From positions 558,001-622,000 of the forward strand of contig NZ_JADBEE010000002.1 in assembly GCF_014874065.1 (NCBI RefSeq): a stretch of 64,000 nt of DNA, written 5' to 3'. The position numbers were made by a program, and so were the translations under genes. This document shows, piece after piece, positions 1,267-12,911 of this stretch; positions within the stretch are counted from its first letter, which is position 1; the number at the start of each line of letters is the position of its first letter. This DNA is from Nesterenkonia halotolerans (GTDB lineage Bacteria > Actinomycetota > Actinomycetes > Actinomycetales > Micrococcaceae). The notes under the pieces are model-generated. The model was not told where the DNA came from. It ran no database searches and saw only the letters and a program-made list of their open reading frames with translations.

Positions 1267-1674
1267 ATGTCTCACGTGAAGTCCATGCTCGAGGTTCACC
1301 CTAAGAAGGATCTGGGGGTCGATCAGGAGAAGCTTGCGGCTTGTATCGCCGCGTGCTTCGAGTGCTCGCAGACCTGCACGGCCTGTGCGGATGCCTGTCT
1401 CAGCGAGCCCATGGTGGGCGAGATGGCGACCTGCATCAGCACGGACCAGAACTGCGCGGATATCTGCCTCACCACCGGACGCATCCTCACCCGCATCACC
1501 GGACAGAACAAGGATGTGCTCCGAGCCGTGGTGCAGGCCTGCCGCGAAGCCTGCCGCGCCTGCGCCCAGGAGTGCGAGGGCCACGCAGAGATGCATGAAC
1601 ACTGCCGGCTGTGTGCGGAAGCCTGCCGGCGCTGCGAGGCCGCTTGCGACGAGCTGCTCAACGTTCTCGGATAA
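1267..1674 (+). CDS. csp3: Four-helix-bundle copper storage protein, cytosolic Csp3-like (DUF326)
   Basis: A 135-residue Cys-rich protein of the DUF326/Csp family. These four-helix bundles store many Cu(I) ions on Cys side chains pointing into the core. I count 18 Cys, mostly spaced as CxxxC or CxxC (AACIAACFECSQTC, CREACRACAQEC, CRLCAEACRRCEAAC), plus a HAEMHEHC segment near the bundle mouth. There is no signal peptide, so it resembles the cytosolic Csp3 group rather than exported Csp1. The ATG at 1267 is chosen over an in-frame GTG at 1234 because GAGAGGAA (1255-1262) is correctly spaced. It sits beside other copper-type genes (DUF305, a CopRS-like two-component system), which supports the role. 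Metal identity is inferred from the family. Confidence 0.88.
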   Translation: MSHVKSMLEVHPKKDLGVDQEKLAACIAACFECSQTCTACADACLSEPMVGEMATCISTDQNCADICLTTGRILTRITGQNKDVLRAVVQACREACRACAQECEGHAEMHEHCRLCAEACRRCEAACDELLNVLG

Positions 1675-1710
1675 GCCGCCAGGAAGCGGACGGTGACGGG
1701 GCCCTTGACG

Positions 1711-1730
1711 GAACCTTCATCGAATCTTCA
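1711..1730. promoter_or_regulatory. CopR-like box 1, upstream of the propeller lipoprotein
   Basis: GAA-cc-TTC-atc-GAA-tc-TTC in 11-bp register. On the minus strand it reads TGAAGATTCgaTGAAGGTTC, close to the C. glutamicum CopR box as I recall it (TGAAGATTTnnTGAAGATTT). A possible -10 element, TAGGGT, follows at 1765-1770, which places the box at about -50, as expected for an OmpR-type activator. The same pattern recurs at 3460-3479 and 4722-4735. Confidence 0.6.
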
Positions 1731-1822
1731 GCCCAGCTGAGCCGATCTTCGGCAGGCCGAAGACTAGGGTGGAATGCCGACCTGGAAAAGGTCGGTATCC
1801 CGTAGCCCATCCGAAGGACTGT

Positions 1823-2701
1823 ATGACGACGTTCCCCCGCAGGCTTCTGCTCACCGGCGGATTGGGGCTTCTCGGTGCAGGCGCTGTCACAGCCTGCGCT
1901 GGAGCTGAACCTTCAGCAGGATCAGGGTCCGGACCTGATCCCCAGGGTGCGGAATCTTCAGCGAACACCGATGCCCTGGGCCATGTCCACGGCATCGTGC
2001 GTGATCCCTCCGACGGTGTGGTGCTGCTGGCGACGCATTACGGGCTGTTCCGCATTGCGGATCACGTCTTGAGCCCAGTGGGTCCCACCATCGATCTGAT
2101 GGGATTCACGCTCGCGCCCGAGGGCCGCTACCTCGCCTCTGGGCACCCGGGAGCTGGGGTCGATCTGCCCGAGCCCGTGGGCCTGATCGAGTCCACGGAC
2201 CAGGGGGAGAGCTGGACCGTGGTCTCACGTGGCGGGGAATCGGACTTTCACGCGCTGACCGCCGATGCTGAGCGCGTCCTCGGCTTCGATGGGGAGCTGC
2301 GCATGAGCACAGATGCCCAGAACTGGGAGACTCTCGCCATTCCGGCCCCTCCCGCGGCTCTGGCCATGGCGCCGGGGACGGGGAGGATCGCCGCGGCCAC
2401 CGAGGCCGGGCTGCTGCTCTCCGCCGACGGGTCCAGCTGGGAGACTCTTCCCACACCACAGCTGGTCTCCCGCGTGGCCTGGGCCGATGACTCGACCCTT
2501 CTGGGCTCGGGGATCGACGGGCGGCTGCTGACCAGCCGCGATTCCGGACAGACCTGGGCCGCCAGCGAGGAGCCGGTCGGGGAGGTCGTCGCCCTCGGGG
2601 CCGGCCTCACGGGGGACGGGTCAGTCGAAGCTCTGCTGGTGGTCGGGACCACAGTCCTGCGAGCCACGGAGGGCGGGAACACGGTCGAACAACTCGTCTG
2701 A
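1823..2701 (+). CDS. F510_1955-type beta-propeller (BNR/glycosylhydrolase-like) lipoprotein
   Basis: A 292-residue predicted lipoprotein. The twin-Arg-containing start (MTTFPRRLLLTGGLGLLG) leads to a lipobox-like VTAC with Cys25. The mature part opens with LGHVHGIVRDP, the signature I associate with the F510_1955 group, and continues with BNR-type repeats (STDQGESW, SADGSSWE, SRDSGQTWA) typical of a sialidase or sortilin-like beta-propeller. No catalytic assignment is possible; the glycosylhydrolase name comes from fold similarity. The ATG at 1823 is preferred over an in-frame ATG at 1769 because of GAAGGA at 1813-1818 and because it exposes the signal peptide. Genes of this type often lie near DUF305 genes, as here, and a CopR-like box precedes it. 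Confidence 0.75.
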   Translation: MTTFPRRLLLTGGLGLLGAGAVTACAGAEPSAGSGSGPDPQGAESSANTDALGHVHGIVRDPSDGVVLLATHYGLFRIADHVLSPVGPTIDLMGFTLAPEGRYLASGHPGAGVDLPEPVGLIESTDQGESWTVVSRGGESDFHALTADAERVLGFDGELRMSTDAQNWETLAIPAPPAALAMAPGTGRIAAATEAGLLLSADGSSWETLPTPQLVSRVAWADDSTLLGSGIDGRLLTSRDSGQTWAASEEPVGEVVALGAGLTGDGSVEALLVVGTTVLRATEGGNTVEQLV

Positions 2702-2756
2702 CCGAAGGGCCGGTCCGGTCCCGCACCTCGGCCTGCCCGGTGCCGCGCCCCATGGA

Positions 2757-3377
2757 TCAGAGGTCTTCGAGCAGGGTCTCCATCTCCTCGATCTCGGCCT
2801 GCTGGTCGGCGATGATGGTGTCGGAAAGCTCCAGTGCCTCAGGGTTCTGCCCTGTGTCCAGGTGATCCTGGGCGGAGGACACCGCGCCCTCGTGGTGGGC
2901 GATCATCTGCTCCAGGAAGAGTCGTGAGGCCTCGGTGCCGGTCGAGTCCTGCAGCTGGCTGAGCTCGTCCTCGCTCATCATTCCGTCCATACCGGACATG
3001 CCTTCCATCGAGTCCATGCCTTCCATGTCCTCGTGGTCGGCGTGCTCGGTCTCGCCCCAGGCTTCCAGCCACGCGTCCATCTGTTCCATCTCCGGGCCCT
3101 GAGCCGCTCGGATGTCCTCGGCCAGGGTGGAGACTTCAGGATCGATCCCGTCCTTCTCGAGCAGGATCTCCGACATCTCCACCGCCTGCTGGTGGTGCAT
3201 CGCCATGCCGGAGACGTAGCCCACGTCTGCCTCGTTGTACTCCTCCGAGACCGCCTCGGCGCTCTGCGTGGTCTCAGCTGCAGACTCGCTGGCCGGCTCC
3301 TCGGAGCTTCCGCAGCTGGCCAGGGCGGCGGCGACGGCAAAGGCTCCGATGCTTGCGGACAATGACTTCGTGTTCAC
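2757..3377 (-). CDS. DUF305 lipoprotein, Met/His-rich
   Basis: A 206-residue lipoprotein of the DUF305 (ferritin-like bundle) family with lipobox ALASC (Cys22). Both family signatures are present: MAMHHQQAV around His61-His62 and MIAHHEGAV around His161-His162. Between them, residues 113-134 form an insert rich in His and Met (HADHEDMEGMDSMEGM and more) that resembles extracytoplasmic copper-binding segments. It probably binds copper outside the membrane; the family has no settled biochemical function. The GTG start at 3377 has a strong AGGAGGAACTC before it. A CopR-like box lies about 85 bases upstream (3460-3479). It is convergent with the propeller lipoprotein, with 55 bases between them. 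Confidence 0.85.
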   Translation of the reverse strand: MNTKSLSASIGAFAVAAALASCGSSEEPASESAAETTQSAEAVSEEYNEADVGYVSGMAMHHQQAVEMSEILLEKDGIDPEVSTLAEDIRAAQGPEMEQMDAWLEAWGETEHADHEDMEGMDSMEGMSGMDGMMSEDELSQLQDSTGTEASRLFLEQMIAHHEGAVSSAQDHLDTGQNPEALELSDTIIADQQAEIEEMETLLEDL

Positions 3378-3459
3378 GAGTTCCTCCTGTGTCGGGCAGT
3401 TCTTCCGTCCACAGGAGTCAACCGGGCGGTGTTCTCTCTGATGCCTGGAAAAACCCTTC

Positions 3460-3479
3460 TTCAGGGAATCTTCACGGAA
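3460..3479. promoter_or_regulatory. CopR-like box 2, upstream of DUF305
   Basis: TTC-agg-GAA-tc-TTC-acg-GAA is a complete TTCNNNGAANNTTCNNNGAA with 11-bp period. In the orientation of the DUF305 gene it reads TGAAGATTCccTGAAG. It lies between the 3' end of the DUF418 gene and the start of DUF305. Confidence 0.6.
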
Positions 3480-3522
3480 CTCTGACCCCTCCTTGACGGG
3501 TCGCGCGGAGCGCCTGCCCAGA

Positions 3523-4614
3523 TCAGGGCGTGGAGCGGCGGAACTTCGGCAGCCGCAGCAGCACTTCGAACGGTCCCCGGCTGAAGCGTCGTCGCCAGAG
3601 CCAGGTGAACGCCATCAGCGCCGCGACCGTGGCACCGGTGGCGAGCGCGCCCTGGGCCATCGTCTCCGGCCCAGGGCGGATTACGAACGCAAGGACCAGC
3701 AGGTGTCCGATGTACGCCGTCAGGGCCATCTGCCCGAGCGTGATGAGAGGTCCTGCCCAGGGCCGTGTCCAGGCGTGGATCTTCAGGCAGACGCCCAGCA
3801 CGAACACCGCCGAGCCCGTGCCGCTGATCAGCCATAGGGGCATCTGTGAATGCGCCACCGCACTGACGAGCCGCTGCCATTCCACATGACTGGTGGGTTC
3901 ACCGAAGAGCTGGACGAGGGCGCCGGAGAGCAGGCGCGCCCCGATGGCTGCCACGGCTCCCCAGAGGATCAGACGGGTGCTGAGCCTGGTCAGCCCAAGC
4001 TGCTGGCGTCCGAGCCAGAGGCCCAGAACGAAGGGGGCCGCCCAGATGATCATCGGGTACGGGCCGGTGATCACGATGTCGGTGAAGATCTCCCAGATCG
4101 GCTCAGTCGCCGAGACGGGGTCCCGGTCGAACTGCCCGTCGGTCTGTGCCTGGACGAGGAGCCACAGAGGCGGGCCGACGACGGCGCTCAGCCCGGCGAC
4201 CGCGAGGAGACTGCGGCCCGAGGCGCGGAGCAGCGGGAGCGAGCAGAGGATCAGCAGCGCGTAGATCTGCAGGATCACGGAGACCCCATGATCGAGTGAT
4301 TGCAGCGCCAGGCCGCCGAGCATCAGCAGCGCGCAGCGCCATATCAGCGCGGCCCAGGGCAGCGGCCCCTGATCGGTTCGGGAGCGGCGAGTCATGAGCG
4401 AGAGCCCGATGCCCCCGAGCAGCACGAACAGCAAGGACGCGCGGCCGTAGGGCACACGGTAGAGCAGGTCCAGGAGCTCGTCGTCGCCGCGAGGTCCGGT
4501 GTTGATGGCGATCATGCCGATCACGGCGAGACCGCGGGCCGCGTCCAGGGCGAGCATTCGGCGTGGAGCCAGGTGGGAGGCTGAGCGAGCAGCGGCAGTT
4601 CCCTCAGTCGACAC
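3523..4614 (-). CDS. DUF418/heparan N-acetyltransferase-like multi-pass membrane protein
   Basis: A 363-residue membrane protein with about ten hydrophobic segments. Near the start it has the MLALDAARGLAVIGMIAINTGP motif shared by DUF418/DUF1624 (YeiB-like, heparan-alpha-glucosaminide N-acetyltransferase-like) proteins. Further on, YRVPYGRASLLFVLLGGIG and the late LGQMALTAYIGHLL are also typical. These families are thought to move acyl groups across membranes; the substrate here is unknown. I choose the GTG at 4614 because GGAGG precedes it on the minus strand; an in-frame start at 4674 would add 20 hydrophilic residues. A good -10 box, TAGTAT (minus strand, 4679-4684), lies about 38 bases downstream of CopR-like box 3, so the gene is a likely member of the copper regulon. 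Confidence 0.78.
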   Translation of the reverse strand: MSTEGTAAARSASHLAPRRMLALDAARGLAVIGMIAINTGPRGDDELLDLLYRVPYGRASLLFVLLGGIGLSLMTRRSRTDQGPLPWAALIWRCALLMLGGLALQSLDHGVSVILQIYALLILCSLPLLRASGRSLLAVAGLSAVVGPPLWLLVQAQTDGQFDRDPVSATEPIWEIFTDIVITGPYPMIIWAAPFVLGLWLGRQQLGLTRLSTRLILWGAVAAIGARLLSGALVQLFGEPTSHVEWQRLVSAVAHSQMPLWLISGTGSAVFVLGVCLKIHAWTRPWAGPLITLGQMALTAYIGHLLVLAFVIRPGPETMAQGALATGATVAALMAFTWLWRRRFSRGPFEVLLRLPKFRRSTP

Positions 4615-4721
4615 TCTGGTCCTCCACCGGGTTCGGTTGATTCGAGCCGCGTGTGCTGGTTCGCACGCAACCATTCATACTAGCCAGCGGCACTTCTGGG
4701 GGTGCGCCACAGACATCCTCC

Positions 4722-4735
4722 TTCACTGAACCTTC
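4722..4735. promoter_or_regulatory. CopR-like box 3, upstream of DUF418
   Basis: TTC-act-GAA-cc-TTC, with a degenerate final half-site. On the minus strand it reads TGAAGGTTCagTGAAG. It overlaps the stop codon of the sensor kinase gene and lies 38 bases upstream of TAGTAT, the -10-like element of the DUF418 gene. Confidence 0.58.
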
Positions 4736-5862
4736 ATAGTGTCGGTCGTGTGTCGGGGGAGCTTGACGGTGAAGACCGCCCCTGTGTCGGGGCCGTCACT
4801 GTGAGCGCTCACGGTGCCGGCATGTGCCGTCACGATGGACCGCACGATCGCCAGGCCGATCCCCGAACCGCCGTGGCTGCGGTCCCGGGCGGTGTCCACC
4901 CGGTAGAAGCGTTCGAACAGGTGCGGCAGATGTTCGGCTGCGATCCCGTGGCCCGAGTCTTGGACGTCCAAGGTCACCGACGTGTCCGTCGCCTCTGCGC
5001 GGAGTGTCACGGTGTCGCCCGGGTCAGTGTGCTGAAGGGCGTTGTCGAGGAGGTTGGTCAGCACCTGTCCCATGCGGTCGGCATCGAGGCTGAGCTCGGC
5101 GCGGCGGGAATCTTCGTCGGCGCTCACACGCAGTTCCACGCCGTGGTCCTGATAACGGCTGCGGGTCTGCGCCTCCGCCGTGGCGAGGAGGTCGCCGATC
5201 CGTGTCGGCGTGGGATGCATGCTCAGCCGGCGCTCCTCGGCCGCGCTCACGAGTGAGATGTCTTCCGCCAGACGGGTGAGACGTTCGGTCTGTTCGCGAA
5301 GCATGACCAGCGTCTCGCCGTCAGCCCGGGCCACGCCGTCCTGCATCGCTTCGAGGTAACCGTCGAGCGTGGCGACGGGGGTGCGCATCTCATGCGCCAG
5401 ATCAGAGAGCATCCGGACGCGGGTGCGTTCGGTCTGGTCCAGGTCGCCAGCCATGGCATTGAATGCGCTCATCAACTCCGCAAATTCGACCCCTATGCCG
5501 CCTTCGGGGACCCGTGCGGTGAAATCTCCCTGGGCCACTCGTGTGACGGCCGCCTGCACCTCACCGATGGGGTGGACCAGCCTGCGGACCAGGAAGAACG
5601 TGACGATCACCGAAGCTGCCAGAGCCACCGCCAGCGCGAGAGCCAGTGTGGTGGTCCAGGCCGTGTCGAAGGCCTGCTCCGCATGAGTTACCACGTCGGA
5701 GTCGGGGGCGACGGGGCTGACCATGAGCATATGGTCATGGAAGAGCGTCGGCCCGATGATCAACGCGACGATCCACGCCGTCACCGCTGCGACGCAGAGC
5801 ACCGCGAGCAGTGCTGCAAGGATCCGGGTTCCGAGACCGAACCTGCGTAGTCGGCGGATCAC
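4723..5862 (-). CDS. Sensor histidine kinase, CopS-like
   Basis: A 379-residue membrane-bound sensor kinase. Membrane helices lie at about residues 14-37 and 70-93, with a short external loop (38-69) containing HDHMLM (His42, His44, Met45, Met47), a plausible Cu ligand set. HAMP follows at about 94-147, then HisKA with LAHEMRTPVA (phospho-accepting His157), then HATPase with the N box (NLLDNALQHT), the G1 box (DSGHGIA) and the G2 box (GGSGIGLAIV). The GTG start overlaps the response regulator stop by four bases (GTGA), so the pair is translationally coupled. The loop and the neighbouring copper genes suggest it senses copper; this is inference. Confidence 0.88.
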   Translation of the reverse strand: MIRRLRRFGLGTRILAALLAVLCVAAVTAWIVALIIGPTLFHDHMLMVSPVAPDSDVVTHAEQAFDTAWTTTLALALAVALAASVIVTFFLVRRLVHPIGEVQAAVTRVAQGDFTARVPEGGIGVEFAELMSAFNAMAGDLDQTERTRVRMLSDLAHEMRTPVATLDGYLEAMQDGVARADGETLVMLREQTERLTRLAEDISLVSAAEERRLSMHPTPTRIGDLLATAEAQTRSRYQDHGVELRVSADEDSRRAELSLDADRMGQVLTNLLDNALQHTDPGDTVTLRAEATDTSVTLDVQDSGHGIAAEHLPHLFERFYRVDTARDRSHGGSGIGLAIVRSIVTAHAGTVSAHSDGPDTGAVFTVKLPRHTTDTMKVQ

Positions 5863-6569
5863 CGGGCAGCCCCCATCTTGTAGCCGACTCCGCGAACGGT
5901 ATGGATGAATTCCGGCGAGGCGGGGTCCTCGCCGAGTTTTCGTCGAAGGTGCCCGACGTGGACATCGACGAGGTGCGGGTCACCGAACCACTGATCGCCC
6001 CATACCTTGTTGATCAGGTCTCGGCGGGAGAGCGCCACACCCGGTTCTGAGAGCAGCGCGGTCAGCACATCAAATTCCGTGCGCGTCAGGTCCACCGGGT
6101 CGCCGCGGAGGTGGACCTCGCGACCGGCCACGTCGACACGGAGATCCCCTGACTCGAGAAGCTGCGTCTCCCCGCTGTTCGTGCGTGGCCGCCGGAGCAT
6201 GGCGCGGACCCGCAGCATCAGCTCTCTCGGGCTGAACGGCTTGGACACGTAGTCATCGGCGCCGACGGAGAGGCCGATCAACCGGTCGACCTCTTCCACG
6301 CGCGCCGTGAGCATGATGATGTAGCAGTCGGAGAACGTGCGGATCTGGCGGCACACCTCGACGCCGTCCATGCCAGGCAGGCCCAGGTCGAGAATCACGA
6401 CGGTCGGGTCCTGCTCACGCACCATCGCCACAGCCCGCGCCCCATCCCCGGTGGAATCGACGATGAGCCCCTCACGGAGGAGATACTGTCCCACGAGTCG
6501 CACGAGGGGTTCCTCGTCGTCGACCACCAGGACGTTGATCTTGGCGCTCTCGCGTTCTGCAGCTCTCAT
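5859..6569 (-). CDS. OmpR/PhoB-family response regulator, CopR-like
   Basis: A 236-residue response regulator. The receiver domain has VVDDEE (acidic pocket), phospho-accepting Asp61 in VVILDLGLPGMDG, and a conserved Lys in DDYVSKPFSPREL. The C-terminal winged helix ends with FIHTVRGVGYKMG, the OmpR-family signature. I choose the ATG at 6569 over a TTG at 6590 because a TACGAT box lies exactly six bases upstream of it, predicting a leaderless mRNA. It is encoded with the downstream sensor kinase. Three boxes resembling CopR sites stand within 5 kb upstream of copper-type genes, and this protein is their most likely reader. Confidence 0.9.
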   Translation of the reverse strand: MRAAERESAKINVLVVDDEEPLVRLVGQYLLREGLIVDSTGDGARAVAMVREQDPTVVILDLGLPGMDGVEVCRQIRTFSDCYIIMLTARVEEVDRLIGLSVGADDYVSKPFSPRELMLRVRAMLRRPRTNSGETQLLESGDLRVDVAGREVHLRGDPVDLTRTEFDVLTALLSEPGVALSRRDLINKVWGDQWFGDPHLVDVHVGHLRRKLGEDPASPEFIHTVRGVGYKMGAAR

Positions 6570-6575
6570 TCTCTG

Positions 6576-6581
6576 ATCGTA
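6576..6581 (-). promoter_or_regulatory. Leaderless -10 box (TACGAT) of the response regulator
   Basis: TACGAT on the minus strand, six bases before the ATG at 6569, so transcription would begin at or next to the start codon. No Shine-Dalgarno sequence is visible. Confidence 0.5.
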
Positions 6582-6639
6582 GATCAGCAAAACCCGGTGC
6601 TGCCGGGTCGTAGAGGGTTCGGCTAAAGGTCCTCGGTCA

Positions 6640-6881: not shown

Positions 6882-7065
6882 CCCACGTTGAACTCCGTGC
6901 GACACGGCTTCAAGGTCAGGCTGAAACCCTTCGCTCCTTGCGCGCCCACGCTCATTAGACTTCACTGCATGTAATTATCGGCGACCCTCGAGCCTCCCGA
7001 TGGAGGCGAGGGGCCGGGCCCGAGCGTGAGTTCGTCCCGGAGTGGGGATTGTTGGAAGGTCGTCT

Positions 7066-10000
7066 GTGAGCAAAGAACCAGCCGCTGAGGAGTCGGGCCG
7101 CCCGCCCGAGAATGAGGCCGCGGACCCCGTGGTCGAGCAGCAGCGCCCAGACACCCCCGACGACGACGCCCGCCCCGGTTCCGCAGAGCCTGCGGTGACG
7201 CAGGGTTCCAGTGAGGTCAATGGTGCGGCCCCGCGGGGTGGTGCTTCAGGTTCGGCCGATGCGGCTGGCTCATCCGGCTCTGCTGGCTCGCCGGGTTCAC
7301 CTGATTCGCCCAGCTCGCCGGATTCTCCCGATTCGCCAAGCTCTCCTGGGTCACCTTCCTCGGCAAACTCGGCCGATTCCGCCGGGTCAGCGCCGTCGGC
7401 TGACTCCGCCGGCTCTCCGGACGCCTCCCAGCCGGAAGCCGAGGACACCGACGTCGCCGATGACGCGGAGACTGATGACACGGAGACCGCCGCCACCTCC
7501 GATGGCCGCGACCCGGTCGCCGCCTGGCTGGAATCCGTGGGCTCGGGCACCGAGAACGACACCATGCTGCGCTTCGCCCCCAGCCAGCACAACGCGATCG
7601 ATCTCACCGACGCCAACTCCTCCGGCATGATGCAGCTCATGGCAGGCCGCAAGACCCGGCTCTCCACACTGCTCAATGACCCCGCAGCCTTCACCGTGGG
7701 CAAACAGGCCGCCCAGGGCATCCGCTCCAAGACCCGCGAGATGTCCGAGGAACGCGGGATCGACGTTGGTTTCCTCGCGGCCGGCATCGCGAGCTGGACC
7801 GAGGACGCCGGCAGCGGCCCCTCGGGGGAGCAGTTCACCGAAGACTTCACCGCGCCGGTGATGCTGGTCCCGATCACGCTGCGCCCCCGTGAGGAGGGCA
7901 GCGGCGACTTCGAGATCCAGTTCAGCGCCCCCGCGAGGCTCAACCCTGCGCTCATCCGGCACCTCGCCGCCCGGCACAGCACCCACCTGGACCCGGTCGA
8001 GTTCCACAACACCGGCTACGTCACCGCCCGCTTCGATCCCAACCGTCCCGCGGACATGCTCGCGCGCATCGCGGGGGAGGTTCCGTCGCTGGGCTCGGTG
8101 CAGGTGTGGCGCCAGCTCTACGTCTCCACCTTCGCTGACCTGACCTTCCTGGGTGACCCCACCGGGCTGGAGCTCGATCACCCGGTCATCCACGCCATGG
8201 CCTCGGGCAAGCAGCTGGGCCAGACCCGCGCCGTGCGCGCCCTGATGGACCTGCCGCCGGTGGACGAGCGCGAACCGCGCGACGAACGCCTCGTGGCCGA
8301 CGCCGACCCGCACCAGCAGGCTGCCCTGGACGCGATCCTCGCCGGGCAGTCCACCGTCGTCTCCGCTCCTGCCGGGACGGGTCAGACCCAGACCGCCATC
8401 AACGCGGCCGCTGGCCTCGCCTGGCAGGGCAAGCGGGTGCTGGTGCTGGCAGAGCGCACCGCCACTCTCGAGCAGTTCAAGGACCGGCTCTCCGAGGTCC
8501 ACCTGGGCACCCTGGCCGGAAACATCTCCGCCGCCGCCACCCCGGAGGAGATCCGCGACCAGCTCATCCGCGCGATCCGCCGCGCCGAGCGCGCGGAGCC
8601 CCCGCGACTGACCGCGCTGCACACCCGGCTCAAGACCAGCCGCCACCAGCTGGTGGATCACGTGAAGTCGCTGCACAACGTGCGCCGCCGCTGGGACTGC
8701 TCGCCCTACCAGGCCATGCAGGCCCTTGCCGCGCTGACCAGCCTGAACCCCGCGCCGTCGACCTCTGTCCGGCTCAAGCGCTCGGTGTTGGACAACACCG
8801 TGGACCGCAGCCAGATCACCGTGAAGCTCAAGCGCGCCGCCGAGCTCGGCGCCTTCTCCGCCGAGACCCGGGACAGCCCCTGGTACAACGCCCGGCTGTC
8901 CAACCGGCAGGAGACCCGGGACGCGATGGCCCTGGTCAAGGAGCTGCGCGATGACCTGCCGCAGCTGCGTCGGATGATGGTCTCGGCCTGCCAGGCCGCC
9001 GGCATCACCCCCGGAGACACCTTCAACGACTGGAACCGCCAGGTGGTGCTCTTCCAGCGCGTGCAGGAATCGCTGGGCAAGTTCACCCACGACGTCTACG
9101 CCCGCGCGGTTGATGACCTGATCGCCGCCACGGCTCCGGGCTGGTGGCGCCGACAGAACAACGTGGAGATGACCTCGGTGACCCGCTCGCGACTGCGCCG
9201 GGTGGCCAAGGAGTACGTGCGGCCTTCCGTGGCCATCGGGGACCTGCATTCCTCGCTGATCGAGGTGCAGAGCGAGCGCGAGGAGTGGTCCGAGTGGTCC
9301 ATCTCCGGCTCCGCGCCCAAGGTGCCCCACCGGGTGGACCGGCTCACCAACACCTTCGGTGAGGTGCAGGGTCGGCTGCAGCGCCTCGATGAGGTGCTGG
9401 AGACCGGATCCCTGGCGGACATGCCGATCGAGAAGCTGCTCGAGACCGTGGAGACCCTCGCCGGGGATGAGAAGCCGCTCGAGACGCTGCCCGAGCGCAC
9501 GCTGCTGGGCGAGCAGCTGCGCGAACAGGGCTTCCGCGACCTCATGGAGGACTTCTCCGCGCGGGAGATCAGCGCGAATGTGGTCGCCGACGAGCTCGAG
9601 CTCTCCTGGTGGCAGTCCGCGCTGGAGGCGATGATCTCCGGGGACGACTATCTGGCGATGACCACCGGGGAGAACCTGCGCAGCATCGAGGAGACCTTCC
9701 GCGAGGCCGACGCCGGGCATCTTGAGACCAGCGCGCACCGGTTGGGCCACGCCCTGTCCGTGCGCTGGAAGTCCGCCGTAGAGGCGCATCCGCAGGCCGC
9801 GAGCCGGCTGCGTGAGCTGCTGCGCAACGCGGCGCCCACCATCGAGGGCCTGGAAGCGATCAACCCCAAGCTGACCCAGCCGCTGGTGCCGATCTGGACG
9901 ACCTCCCCGCTCGGCCTGGGGGAGCAGTTCCCGTCGGACTACAAGGCCGACGCCGTGATCCTGCTCGACGCCGAGTCCCTCGCCGTGCCCACGGCGCTGA

Positions 10001-11343
10001 ACGCGATCACCCGCGCAGGCCAGGTGGTGGCCTTCGGTGACCCGGTGGCCGGCTCGCCGACTCCGTTCCACGTCTCTGCCGATCCGGTCGCGCGTGAGAC
10101 CGAACAGCACCGCCCGGCGTCGATCTACGCCGAGCTGGCAGCCGTGCTGCCGCTCTACGCGCTGCGCCAGGTCCACCGCGGGGTGGATCAGGAGCTCACC
10201 GGGCTGCTCTCCACCGCGCTCTACGACGGCGAGCTCACCCGCCTGCCCGACGCCGCGCAGCTGACCGGGCAGAACCGCCGGTTCACCGTGGAGCACGTGG
10301 CCGGGGTGCCGGCCGGATACCGCGACGCCGTGGAATCACCCACCGGCGAGGTCAACCGGGTGGTGGACATGGTCTTCGAGCACGTCAGGTCCCGGCGCAG
10401 CTCCTCGCTGGCCGTGATCACCGGCTCGGAGTGGCATGCTCGACGGGTCGCCGACGCGATCCGGCTGAACCTGGCGAACCACGCTTGGGCCAAGCCCTTC
10501 TTCGCCGACGGCGCTCACGGCGAGAGCTTCGTGGTGGCGCCGGTGGAGCGCGCCGCCGGGCTGGTCCGCGACGACGTGATCTTCAGCCTCGGCTTCGGCC
10601 GCTCCGTCAAGGGCGAGGCGGCGACGCACTTCGGGGAGCTCTCGGAGCCGCGGGGCCGCGAGCACTTCGCTGTGGCGGTGACCCGGGCACGGGAGCATCT
10701 GCGCGTGGTGACCTCGCTGAGCAGCGCCGATATGGACCGCCCGGCGCTCACCGAGGGCGCGCGCGAGATCTATGACCTGATCAGGCTGGGCCTGGAGGGT
10801 GCGGGGAACCCGACGGCCTCGGCGCAGCTGACCGATCCGCTGGTGCTGGACCTGGTGGACCGGATCCGCGCTCGCGGTGGACGGGTGGAGGACGGGTTCC
10901 GCGGAACCCTGGACCTCGCTGCGTGCTCGCGCAAGGCCGCGCCGGACACCCCGATGGTCCCGGTGGCGATGGTCTCCGACGGCACCAAGCGCTACGGGGC
11001 AATGTCGGTGCGCGAGCGCTCGCGGCAGCGTCCTAAGGGCTTCGAGGAGCTGGGCTGGAGCTACATGGCGCTCTGGACCATCGAGGTCTTCTCCAACCCG
11101 GTCCGCTGCACCGAAGCGGTGGCCGAGCAGGTCGGCCTGGCCTCCGGTCCGGAGTTCGCCGAATCCGGTCGCATCACCGTGCACACCGCCGGGATCACCC
11201 CACGCGGGCGGCGCTCACGGGAGACCGAGTCCCGCAGCGACGGCATCCGCTTCGGCGGGGCGGCCGATATCCAGGACGAGGATTCGCACCGCAAGTCCAA
11301 GAAGTGGCTCTCGCCGCGGGAGCGCGGGGCATGGAAGGAATAG
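7066..11343 (+). CDS. Large SF1 helicase-like protein with degenerate ATPase motifs and Vsr-like C-terminus
   Basis: A 1425-residue protein. Residues ~1-150 are a low-complexity Ser/Pro/Asp/Gly/Ala tail, with runs such as SPDSPSSPDSPDSPSSPGSP. An SF1-type ATPase core follows. Motif I is SAPAGTGQTQT, with Gln440 where the Walker A Lys should be. The motif II region reads ILLDAESL (968-971) instead of a DEAS/DEAH form. Gly991-Asp992 keep part of motif III, and motif VI is well preserved (AVAVTRAREH, Arg1207/Arg1209). Residues ~1265-1350 (VSDGTKRYGAMSVRERSRQRP, LGWSYMALWTIEVF) resemble the Vsr/MTES_1575-type nuclease domain found at the end of DUF4011-type helicases. The GTG at 7066 is chosen for GGAAGG at 7054-7059. 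A DNA-processing role is likely, but ATP hydrolysis is doubtful. Confidence 0.75.
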   Translation: MSKEPAAEESGRPPENEAADPVVEQQRPDTPDDDARPGSAEPAVTQGSSEVNGAAPRGGASGSADAAGSSGSAGSPGSPDSPSSPDSPDSPSSPGSPSSANSADSAGSAPSADSAGSPDASQPEAEDTDVADDAETDDTETAATSDGRDPVAAWLESVGSGTENDTMLRFAPSQHNAIDLTDANSSGMMQLMAGRKTRLSTLLNDPAAFTVGKQAAQGIRSKTREMSEERGIDVGFLAAGIASWTEDAGSGPSGEQFTEDFTAPVMLVPITLRPREEGSGDFEIQFSAPARLNPALIRHLAARHSTHLDPVEFHNTGYVTARFDPNRPADMLARIAGEVPSLGSVQVWRQLYVSTFADLTFLGDPTGLELDHPVIHAMASGKQLGQTRAVRALMDLPPVDEREPRDERLVADADPHQQAALDAILAGQSTVVSAPAGTGQTQTAINAAAGLAWQGKRVLVLAERTATLEQFKDRLSEVHLGTLAGNISAAATPEEIRDQLIRAIRRAERAEPPRLTALHTRLKTSRHQLVDHVKSLHNVRRRWDCSPYQAMQALAALTSLNPAPSTSVRLKRSVLDNTVDRSQITVKLKRAAELGAFSAETRDSPWYNARLSNRQETRDAMALVKELRDDLPQLRRMMVSACQAAGITPGDTFNDWNRQVVLFQRVQESLGKFTHDVYARAVDDLIAATAPGWWRRQNNVEMTSVTRSRLRRVAKEYVRPSVAIGDLHSSLIEVQSEREEWSEWSISGSAPKVPHRVDRLTNTFGEVQGRLQRLDEVLETGSLADMPIEKLLETVETLAGDEKPLETLPERTLLGEQLREQGFRDLMEDFSAREISANVVADELELSWWQSALEAMISGDDYLAMTTGENLRSIEETFREADAGHLETSAHRLGHALSVRWKSAVEAHPQAASRLRELLRNAAPTIEGLEAINPKLTQPLVPIWTTSPLGLGEQFPSDYKADAVILLDAESLAVPTALNAITRAGQVVAFGDPVAGSPTPFHVSADPVARETEQHRPASIYAELAAVLPLYALRQVHRGVDQELTGLLSTALYDGELTRLPDAAQLTGQNRRFTVEHVAGVPAGYRDAVESPTGEVNRVVDMVFEHVRSRRSSSLAVITGSEWHARRVADAIRLNLANHAWAKPFFADGAHGESFVVAPVERAAGLVRDDVIFSLGFGRSVKGEAATHFGELSEPRGREHFAVAVTRAREHLRVVTSLSSADMDRPALTEGAREIYDLIRLGLEGAGNPTASAQLTDPLVLDLVDRIRARGGRVEDGFRGTLDLAACSRKAAPDTPMVPVAMVSDGTKRYGAMSVRERSRQRPKGFEELGWSYMALWTIEVFSNPVRCTEAVAEQVGLASGPEFAESGRITVHTAGITPRGRRSRETESRSDGIRFGGAADIQDEDSHRKSKKWLSPRERGAWKE
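7255..7425 (+). repeat. Degenerate Ser-Pro/Ser-Ala codon repeats
   Basis: Imperfect 6-9 bp repeats of the type TCNCCNGAT/TCGCC encode the Ser/Pro/Asp/Gly/Ala-rich tail of the helicase-like protein. Such tracts vary in length between strains by slippage and encode disordered protein. Confidence 0.6.
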
Positions 11344-11930: not shown

Positions 11931-12911
11931 ATGCCGACGCGTCCAATCCTCGAGGAGTCCTCCGGGCCGTTCCTCCCGCAACGCCCTCGCCGGTCGCGGC
12001 GAACTCCGCAGTCACCCATCGTTGGTCGAGGTACCCCGGCGGGGTCTACGAGGACCGCTCCTCGGGAGCCCAGGCACCAGATACCGCCGCAACGACGTGA
12101 GCTGCGACGCCCAGCCCAGGGCACGTCACCTCCGGGCACGCCGTCTCGGAGCACCCACCCCAGGGGGACGGCGCGTCGAAGCCGCAACAGACCCCCGCGA
12201 GTCAGCCGAAGACTGCACGGCTCTGCGCTTCCCCGATTGCTGCAGCGGTTCCGCATACCGCTTGCAGTGATTCTCGGCCTGGGCGCGGCGGCGGCCGCCC
12301 TGCTCACCAGCGAGGAGGGTCAGCTGGAGACGGCTCTTGCGCTGCGCGTCAACACCGACGTCGCTGCGGGAGAGCGGCTGAGCGCCGGGGTGGTGGAAGA
12401 GGTCTCCGTAGATGAAGCGGCCGTCCCGCGGGGATACAGCGCAGATATCGACCAGGTGCTCGGGCAGCAGGTGGCCGTGCCGCTGCCGGCCGGGGCGCTG
12501 ATTCATCCGAACCAGCTGGTCGGGCCGGGGCTGCTGGCCGGTCAGGACCCGGGCACGGTGGCGGTCCCCGTGCGACCAGCAGATCCCGCGATGATCGGGC
12601 TGCTCACTCCGGGTCAGCGTGTGGACGTCCTCGTCTCTTCCGACACCCCGGAGCGCGGGTCCTCCTCTGAGCCGGTGGCCACCGCGGCACCGGTGCTGTG
12701 GACTCCGAAGGATGAGTCCGAGAACTGGCTGCCGGCCGGCGGAGAGGCGGGGAGCGTGGTGATTCTGGCGGTGGATCTAGCCACCGCAGAGTCGATCGCG
12801 CAGGCTACCCAGGAAGGTCGGCTGCACCTGAGTCTGCGCAGTGCGCGGGTGAGCGGTGCAGAGGCAGGTCCCGCAGACTCGCGTGATTCCTCAGCTGGAG
12901 GAACTCGATGA
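11931..12911 (+). CDS. SAF-domain protein, CpaB/RcpC-like
   Basis: A 326-residue protein. Residues 1-100 are a very Arg/Pro-rich tail, followed by one membrane helix (~103-122, IPLAVILGLGAAAAALL) and an external SAF domain (~125-200: LRVNTDVAAGERLSAGVVEEVSV, AVPLPAGALIHPNQLVG). A C-terminal part resembles CpaB/RcpC proteins of Flp-pilus assembly (VPVRPADPAMIGLLTPGQRVDVLVS, VVILAVDLATAESIAQATQEGRLHLSL). No pilus genes are nearby, so a pilus role is not supported; lone SAF proteins of this kind are common in Micrococcaceae. No Shine-Dalgarno is visible before ATG 11931 and the long basic tail makes the start uncertain. The gene's end overlaps the oppositely oriented fmdB-like gene by 21 bases. 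Confidence 0.7.
   Translation: MPTRPILEESSGPFLPQRPRRSRRTPQSPIVGRGTPAGSTRTAPREPRHQIPPQRRELRRPAQGTSPPGTPSRSTHPRGTARRSRNRPPRVSRRLHGSALPRLLQRFRIPLAVILGLGAAAAALLTSEEGQLETALALRVNTDVAAGERLSAGVVEEVSVDEAAVPRGYSADIDQVLGQQVAVPLPAGALIHPNQLVGPGLLAGQDPGTVAVPVRPADPAMIGLLTPGQRVDVLVSSDTPERGSSSEPVATAAPVLWTPKDESENWLPAGGEAGSVVILAVDLATAESIAQATQEGRLHLSLRSARVSGAEAGPADSRDSSAGGTR

Follow-up and report, generated by a model that had tools for sequence, protein, structure and literature searches.

Introduction

The closest described relative of the system considered here is CopRS of Corynebacterium glutamicum. In PMC3140484, its CopR box is given as TGAAGATTTgaTGAAGATTT, the cop region of pLEW279b is said to be 97% similar to that of C. 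glutamicum, and five residues of the CopS loop (H39, H41, M42, M44, and H56) are proposed as possible copper ligands. Two further systems bear on the comparison. The consensus operator of CsoR from Streptomyces lividans is given as ATATACCCCTNAGGGGTATAT in PMC3902906, and CopM of Synechocystis, a DUF305 protein, is described in PMC4335983 as copper-induced and as binding Cu(I). We examined a 64,000-nucleotide window of Nesterenkonia halotolerans (contig NZ_JADBEE010000002.1, positions 558,001 to 622,000), in which three copies of a CopR-type box lie beside an OmpR-type two-component system. From the sequence we consider it very probable that these boxes define a compact regulon for copper excess, with three envelope targets, of the CopRS type found in actinobacteria.

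A tandem box confined to one locus

The boxes and their candidate promoter elements are as follows.

1705..1730 (exact core 1715-1730), minus strand: site 1, CopR-type box of three 11-base units, upstream of the F510_1955 gene and of opposite polarity to it
1765..1770, plus strand: -10 hexamer TAGGGT, 34 bases beyond the edge of box 1
3459..3474, minus strand: site 2, CopR-type box preceding the DUF305 gene
3416..3421, minus strand: TTGACT, a weak -10 candidate 37 bases beyond box 2
4721..4736, minus strand: site 3, CopR-type box preceding the DUF418 gene; the kinase stop codon is the second TGA of the box
4677..4682, minus strand: -10 hexamer TAGTAT, 38 bases beyond the edge of box 3

A scan of the window for TGAAGRTTCnnTGAAG returned exact minus-strand matches at 1715-1730, 3459-3474, and 4721-4736, so that each of the three boxes reported in an earlier note on this DNA was recovered where that note had placed it. 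The same note had named, beforehand, a random density of the box across the genome as grounds for rejecting it, and this condition proved not to apply. Only three exact copies exist in the 2,966,101-base genome, all of them at these sites, against about 0.006 expected for a genome of this size at the base composition of the window. The single copy with one mismatch is the third repeat unit of site 1. At two mismatches, 15 copies are scattered elsewhere; the reversed pattern, used as a control, gives 8 matches at up to two mismatches in the same genome.

The earlier description of the box as symmetric did not survive. Among the three sites compared, the symmetric pattern TTCNNNGAANNTTCNNNGAA matches exactly only at 3460-3479, and at up to three mismatches it yields 14 matches in the window where 6.5 are expected, a number reached by 5 of 100 shuffles. 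We dropped this reading, given that the pattern is barely enriched and masks the polarity of the box. The GR step gives the box a direction. All three boxes share the orientation of copRS, and site 1 hence runs backwards to the gene it now precedes.

The weak enrichment of the symmetric pattern, together with the overlap of box 3 with a stop codon, is what could be said for the boxes being chance matches or coding sequence. The kinase of the window ends on a TGA that belongs to the second half-site of box 3. Across 15 loci, the stop falls at that half-site in 6 (as TAA in 2 of them), coincides with the first base of the box in one (L058), and lies outside the box in 8. Since box 3 is kept in those 8 loci, coding constraint does not explain it. 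Given this, the uniqueness of the box in the genome, and the fixed distance to the -10 element described below, an origin by chance or from coding sequence has a negligible probability.

Promoter spacing

The earlier note had also proposed -10 boxes at 34-38 bases from two of the sites, and both are borne out: TAGGGT stands at 34 bases from site 1 and TAGTAT at 38 from site 3, with spacing kept in relatives. Of 15 loci compared at site 3, 12 have a TANNNT hexamer 37-38 bases beyond the box, and the remaining three have it at 48-49 bases, together with one extra 11-base unit. At site 1 the hexamer lies at exactly 34 bases in 9 of 10 loci, despite the opposite orientation of the box. This constancy suggests direct activation by a bound regulator. 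Orientation is similarly regular, the box being directed toward DUF418 in 11/11 pairs, toward the regulator gene in 13/17, and away from F510_1955 in 8/9. An inverted repeat, TCTTCGGcaggCCGAAGA, lies between box 1 and its -10 hexamer (1745-1763) and is unconserved in relatives as judged by eye.

Co-occurrence of box and regulator

We searched 58 genomes, 30 of them Nesterenkonia (3 of the 30 under 80% complete). OmpR-type relatives of the regulator are present in all 58, and the genome of the window itself has 22 matches, a number that leaves room for the boxes to be bound by a different regulator encoded elsewhere. The best regulator matches in Nesterenkonia separate into 17 genomes at E values of at most 1.8e-97 and 13 at 5.8e-60 or above. 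Of the 17 genomes with the ortholog, 13 contain an exact TGAAGRTTYNNTGAAG; none of the 13 genomes without the ortholog does (Fisher p 2e-5). Of the four ortholog-bearing genomes that lack the exact box, two carry it at one mismatch (L182, L185), and the other two (L066, L181) have degenerate T(C/G)AAG arrays at the same place. By eye, 32 of the 34 exact boxes in the genus lie within about 10 kb of the ortholog, although for two of these the distance requires a circular contig in genome G020. The remaining pair, in G021, is 11-13 kb from a 60% relative. Restriction of the exact box, within the genus, to genomes with this ortholog, and its proximity to the ortholog gene, make control by another regulator very unlikely.

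Beyond the genus, an exact box was found in 4 of 28 genomes (G031, G032, G036, G051), and the reversed pattern was found in none of the 58. In a named set of 80 regulator loci (1.33 Mb), 81 matches at up to one mismatch fell in 41 loci, the control again giving 0; near copies account for seven of the matching loci (from Actinomyces, Pauljensenia, and one Propionibacteriaceae bin). A total of 88 distinct 38-base box contexts, with the consensus TGAAGRTTYnnTGAAG, came from loci L050-L140. Genes next to these boxes were named through a reference set chosen from the window and annotated plasmids, so that other neighbours go unnamed; for 16 of the 88 distinct boxes, no gene of this set starts within 350 bases. 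DUF305 is the commonest neighbour (22 of 99 box-gene pairs); 18 of its pairs run in the direction of the box, and 9 of those 18 come from genera other than Nesterenkonia. Across the group, the regulator has a near-invariant recognition helix (VDVH[VI][GA][HN]LRRKLG), unlike that of MtrA-type paralogs.

Several observations weigh against a copper regulon read by this regulator. The link between box and regulator is looser outside the genus: the box of G031 occurs without a close ortholog, that of G036 is far from the regulator gene, and the orthologs in G040, G046, G050, and G057 lack an exact box. At up to one mismatch, 39 of the 80 regulator loci have no box, and a Cryobacterium locus whose regulator is 65% identical (L130) has none at two mismatches. 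The His/Met motif of the kinase, considered below, is as common in loci without the box (24/32) as in those with it (34/48). Finally, none of 11 loci has a TANNNT hexamer at site 2; by eye, the sequence at about 37 bases is TTGACT or close to it. Beside these, the regulator of locus L044 (51% identity) has a CopR-like helix, yet no box occurs within 1.5 kb at up to two mismatches.

The sensor and the link to copper

The comparison that the earlier note made with the CopR box of C. glutamicum is correct, as PMC3140484 confirms. That box has 18 bases outside the linkers, of which, by hand count, site 1 shares 15, site 2 shares 14, and site 3 shares 12; the tandem arrangement TGAAGATTTnnTGAAGATTT that marks CopRS systems is thus present at all three sites (12 to 15 of 18 bases). 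The regulator and the short-loop kinase are orthologous to the pLEW279b pair, at 54% and 45% identity. All five residues proposed as copper ligands in CopS are present in the window kinase. Among 80 kinases, the loop type GPxxF..H[MLIF] is found in 76, the distal His in 74, and a stricter His/Met motif in 58. Taken with its co-occurrence with the box, the regulator and sensor fit a CopRS system, in agreement with the earlier proposal that the adjacent OmpR-type pair reads the boxes.

Gene neighbourhoods elsewhere point the same way. On annotated plasmids of Rhodococcus and Gordonia, orthologs sit beside genes for a multicopper oxidase, DUF305, a copper/heavy-metal ATPase, and F510_1955; in Corynebacterium and Rothia they sit beside HMA and ATPase genes.

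This regulator could instead read the boxes in response to another metal or to general envelope stress. The three targets are envelope proteins, with neither a copper pump nor an oxidase in the regulon here, and the top NCBIfam score of the kinase is for BaeS, an envelope-stress sensor. That score is far under the cut-off (236 vs 500), and the CopS-like loop residues, the copper genes near orthologs, the CopM-type target, and the adjoining Csp gene all favor copper, leaving a different signal unlikely.

Targets of the predicted regulon

The genes of the locus run in the order Csp (DUF326), F510_1955 propeller, DUF305/CopM, DUF418, sensor kinase, and response regulator:

1267..1674, plus strand: Csp-like four-helix copper storage protein with 18 Cys; PF03860 above cut-off
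1823..2701, plus strand: F510_1955 family propeller; NF045728, 211 bits vs cut-off 175
2757..3377, minus strand: DUF305 protein, CopM family metallochaperone; PF03713; NF049983, 103.4 bits vs cut-off 90
3523..4614, minus strand: DUF418 membrane protein with HGSNAT fold; PF04235; structure model and fold match
4723..5862, minus strand: sensor kinase, CopS-like, with short loop FHDHMLM...HAEQAF
5859..6590, minus strand: OmpR-type response regulator, CopR-like, whose true start may be further in

The gene assignments made earlier for the three targets (F510_1955 propeller, DUF305, and DUF418) stand. By eye, the propeller has a twin-arginine and lipobox-like signal at its N-terminus, and the DUF305 protein a lipobox-like signal. 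The latter contains 14 Met and two HH motifs (MHHQQ and AHHEG) and scores above the NCBIfam CopM cut-off. For DUF418, two features favor a start at GTG 4614 over ATG 4674: the position of the -10 hexamer (4677-4682) and a conserved GGAGGA ahead of the GTG. Its predicted structure matches the fold of the membrane acetyltransferase HGSNAT; the DUF418 profile gave no match against the sequences of solved structures.

Proposed mechanism and comparison with known systems

The boxes, their uniqueness, the co-occurrence with the regulator, orthology, promoter spacing, and the gene content of relatives are computed results. From them we infer copper as the signal, binding of the regulator, and activation. 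With its short His/Met loop, CopS probably detects copper on the outer side of the membrane and phosphorylates CopR. Phosphorylated CopR would bind head to tail on two or three 11-base repeats of TGAAGRTTCnn and, once bound, would activate promoters whose -10 element lies at a fixed 34 or 37-38 bases. The predicted targets are a propeller lipoprotein (F510_1955), a copper chaperone (DUF305), and a membrane acyltransferase (DUF418, on the basis of its fold). CsoR would handle the copper pumps separately, and site 1 may retain the polarity of a lost divergent HMA/copper-ATPase operon. The regulator family is an ordinary one; the regulon is unusual, pared down and clearly bounded. In its principal claims the earlier note was correct.

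The locus resembles C. glutamicum CopRS in regulator and sensor family, loop residues, and the tandem 11-base box. One box there serves copR and a divergent oxidase/ATPase operon, whereas here three boxes serve three envelope genes. Upstream of copRS in the window, the best match has 5 mismatches, and none of 14 Nesterenkonia loci has a box there at up to one mismatch. A box for copR autoregulation is a trait of the studied C. glutamicum system, not of the family, and is absent here. The same holds for a copper ATPase and multicopper oxidase in the regulon, a trait of the studied system that is lacking here; a single query found no multicopper oxidase in the window genome, which alone is not proof of absence.

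CopM of Synechocystis (PMC4335983) is likewise a secreted copper-binding DUF305 protein under a copper two-component system, but that system and its gene set are different. The lit2 and lgt2 genes of Listeria and Enterococcus (PMC8275575) offer another parallel, as acyl-transfer membrane enzymes under copper control; Lit, however, belongs to a family other than DUF418. An Lgt-like gene lies 99-134 bases after a CopR-type box in three loci (L062, L064, L138), and a comparable place is occupied in other lineages by an Lgt-like gene (Georgenia, Cellulomonas) or by HGSNAT/DUF1624 genes (Kocuria). The regulon might conceivably couple the two lipoproteins to a copper-induced DUF418 acyltransferase that caps lipoprotein N-termini, or another envelope amine, against copper binding, as an actinobacterial counterpart of lit2/lgt2; we regard this as a speculative and somewhat unlikely proposal.

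The analysis predicts a copper regulon in Nesterenkonia and places its candidate binding sites to the base. The three publications found to join Nesterenkonia, copper, and two-component systems concern other subjects, to judge from titles and the beginnings of abstracts. The analysis also ties DUF418, an uncharacterised membrane family, to copper through a conserved operator, so that its function becomes testable; six papers, considered at the level of title and opening of the abstract, mention both DUF418 and copper.

History of site 1 and the CsoR operators

In seven relatives (L051, L052, L054, L055, L056, L078, L178), the box separates F510_1955 from a divergent gene for HMA and/or a copper ATPase (the L051 contig stops after HMA). 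The distance from the start of the box to the beginning of an exact CsoR-type operator is 39-44 bases (101 in L056). With a CopR-type box adjoining a CsoR operator ahead of a single pump operon, these relatives could read outside and inside copper together. In a further locus, L053 (6264-6500), the box is kept, the adjoining HMA gene looks decayed, and no operator lies near the box.

The window and its sister locus L050 lack the ATPase side, and the Csp gene follows directly. A four-protein tree nests both among ATPase-bearing species (100/100), which makes a single loss the simplest account. Site 1 appears to be one half of an ancestral bidirectional promoter that has lost its copper-ATPase side, and its backward polarity fits a lost divergent ATPase operon.

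An exact CsoR operator stands ahead of a CopB-like ATPase (62%) located elsewhere in the window genome, and an operator with one mismatch stands ahead of csoR and a second ATPase. As in the CsoR regulons of S. lividans, ATACCCCNNNGGGGTAT operators thus precede a copper ATPase and csoR; unlike the predicted CopRS regulon, CsoR represses and reads inside copper (PMC3902906). The CsoR operator stands beside a CopR-type box in relatives, whereas the two gene sets are apart in this species. Given that the ATPases are elsewhere behind CsoR operators, the sensing of outside copper and that of inside copper seem to govern different genes in this species. Such a regulatory split would leave two regulons apart, with a leftover box holding the old polarity.

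In the pLEW279b locus (L135, position 2681), an exact CsoR-type operator lies ahead of the HMA/copper-ATPase genes. This placement suggests a CsoR input to the pump listed in the CopR regulon of C. glutamicum.

Neighbouring features

The Csp-like protein scores 38.7 bits against TIGR04401, under the cut-off of 100. No CopR-type box was found in its upstream region (1160-1266), and Csp was ruled out as a regulon member in this species on that basis. Boxes do occur 90-108 bases ahead of Csp genes in L057, L060, L069, L127, and L135. The Csp promoter region contains a palindrome, GGGCACCTGCAGAGGTGCCC, that was not seen in L050, L052, or L078, and a TAGCCT that is kept in the window and in these three loci.

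Further along the window, 7042-11343 encodes a 1433-aa protein with DUF4011, a helicase, and a weak MTES_1575 nuclease match; among PADLOC families, this protein matches the candidate defence family PDC-S37 best (1.6e-93). At 11931-12911, SAF and RcpC/CpaB domains mark a likely Flp pilus assembly protein.

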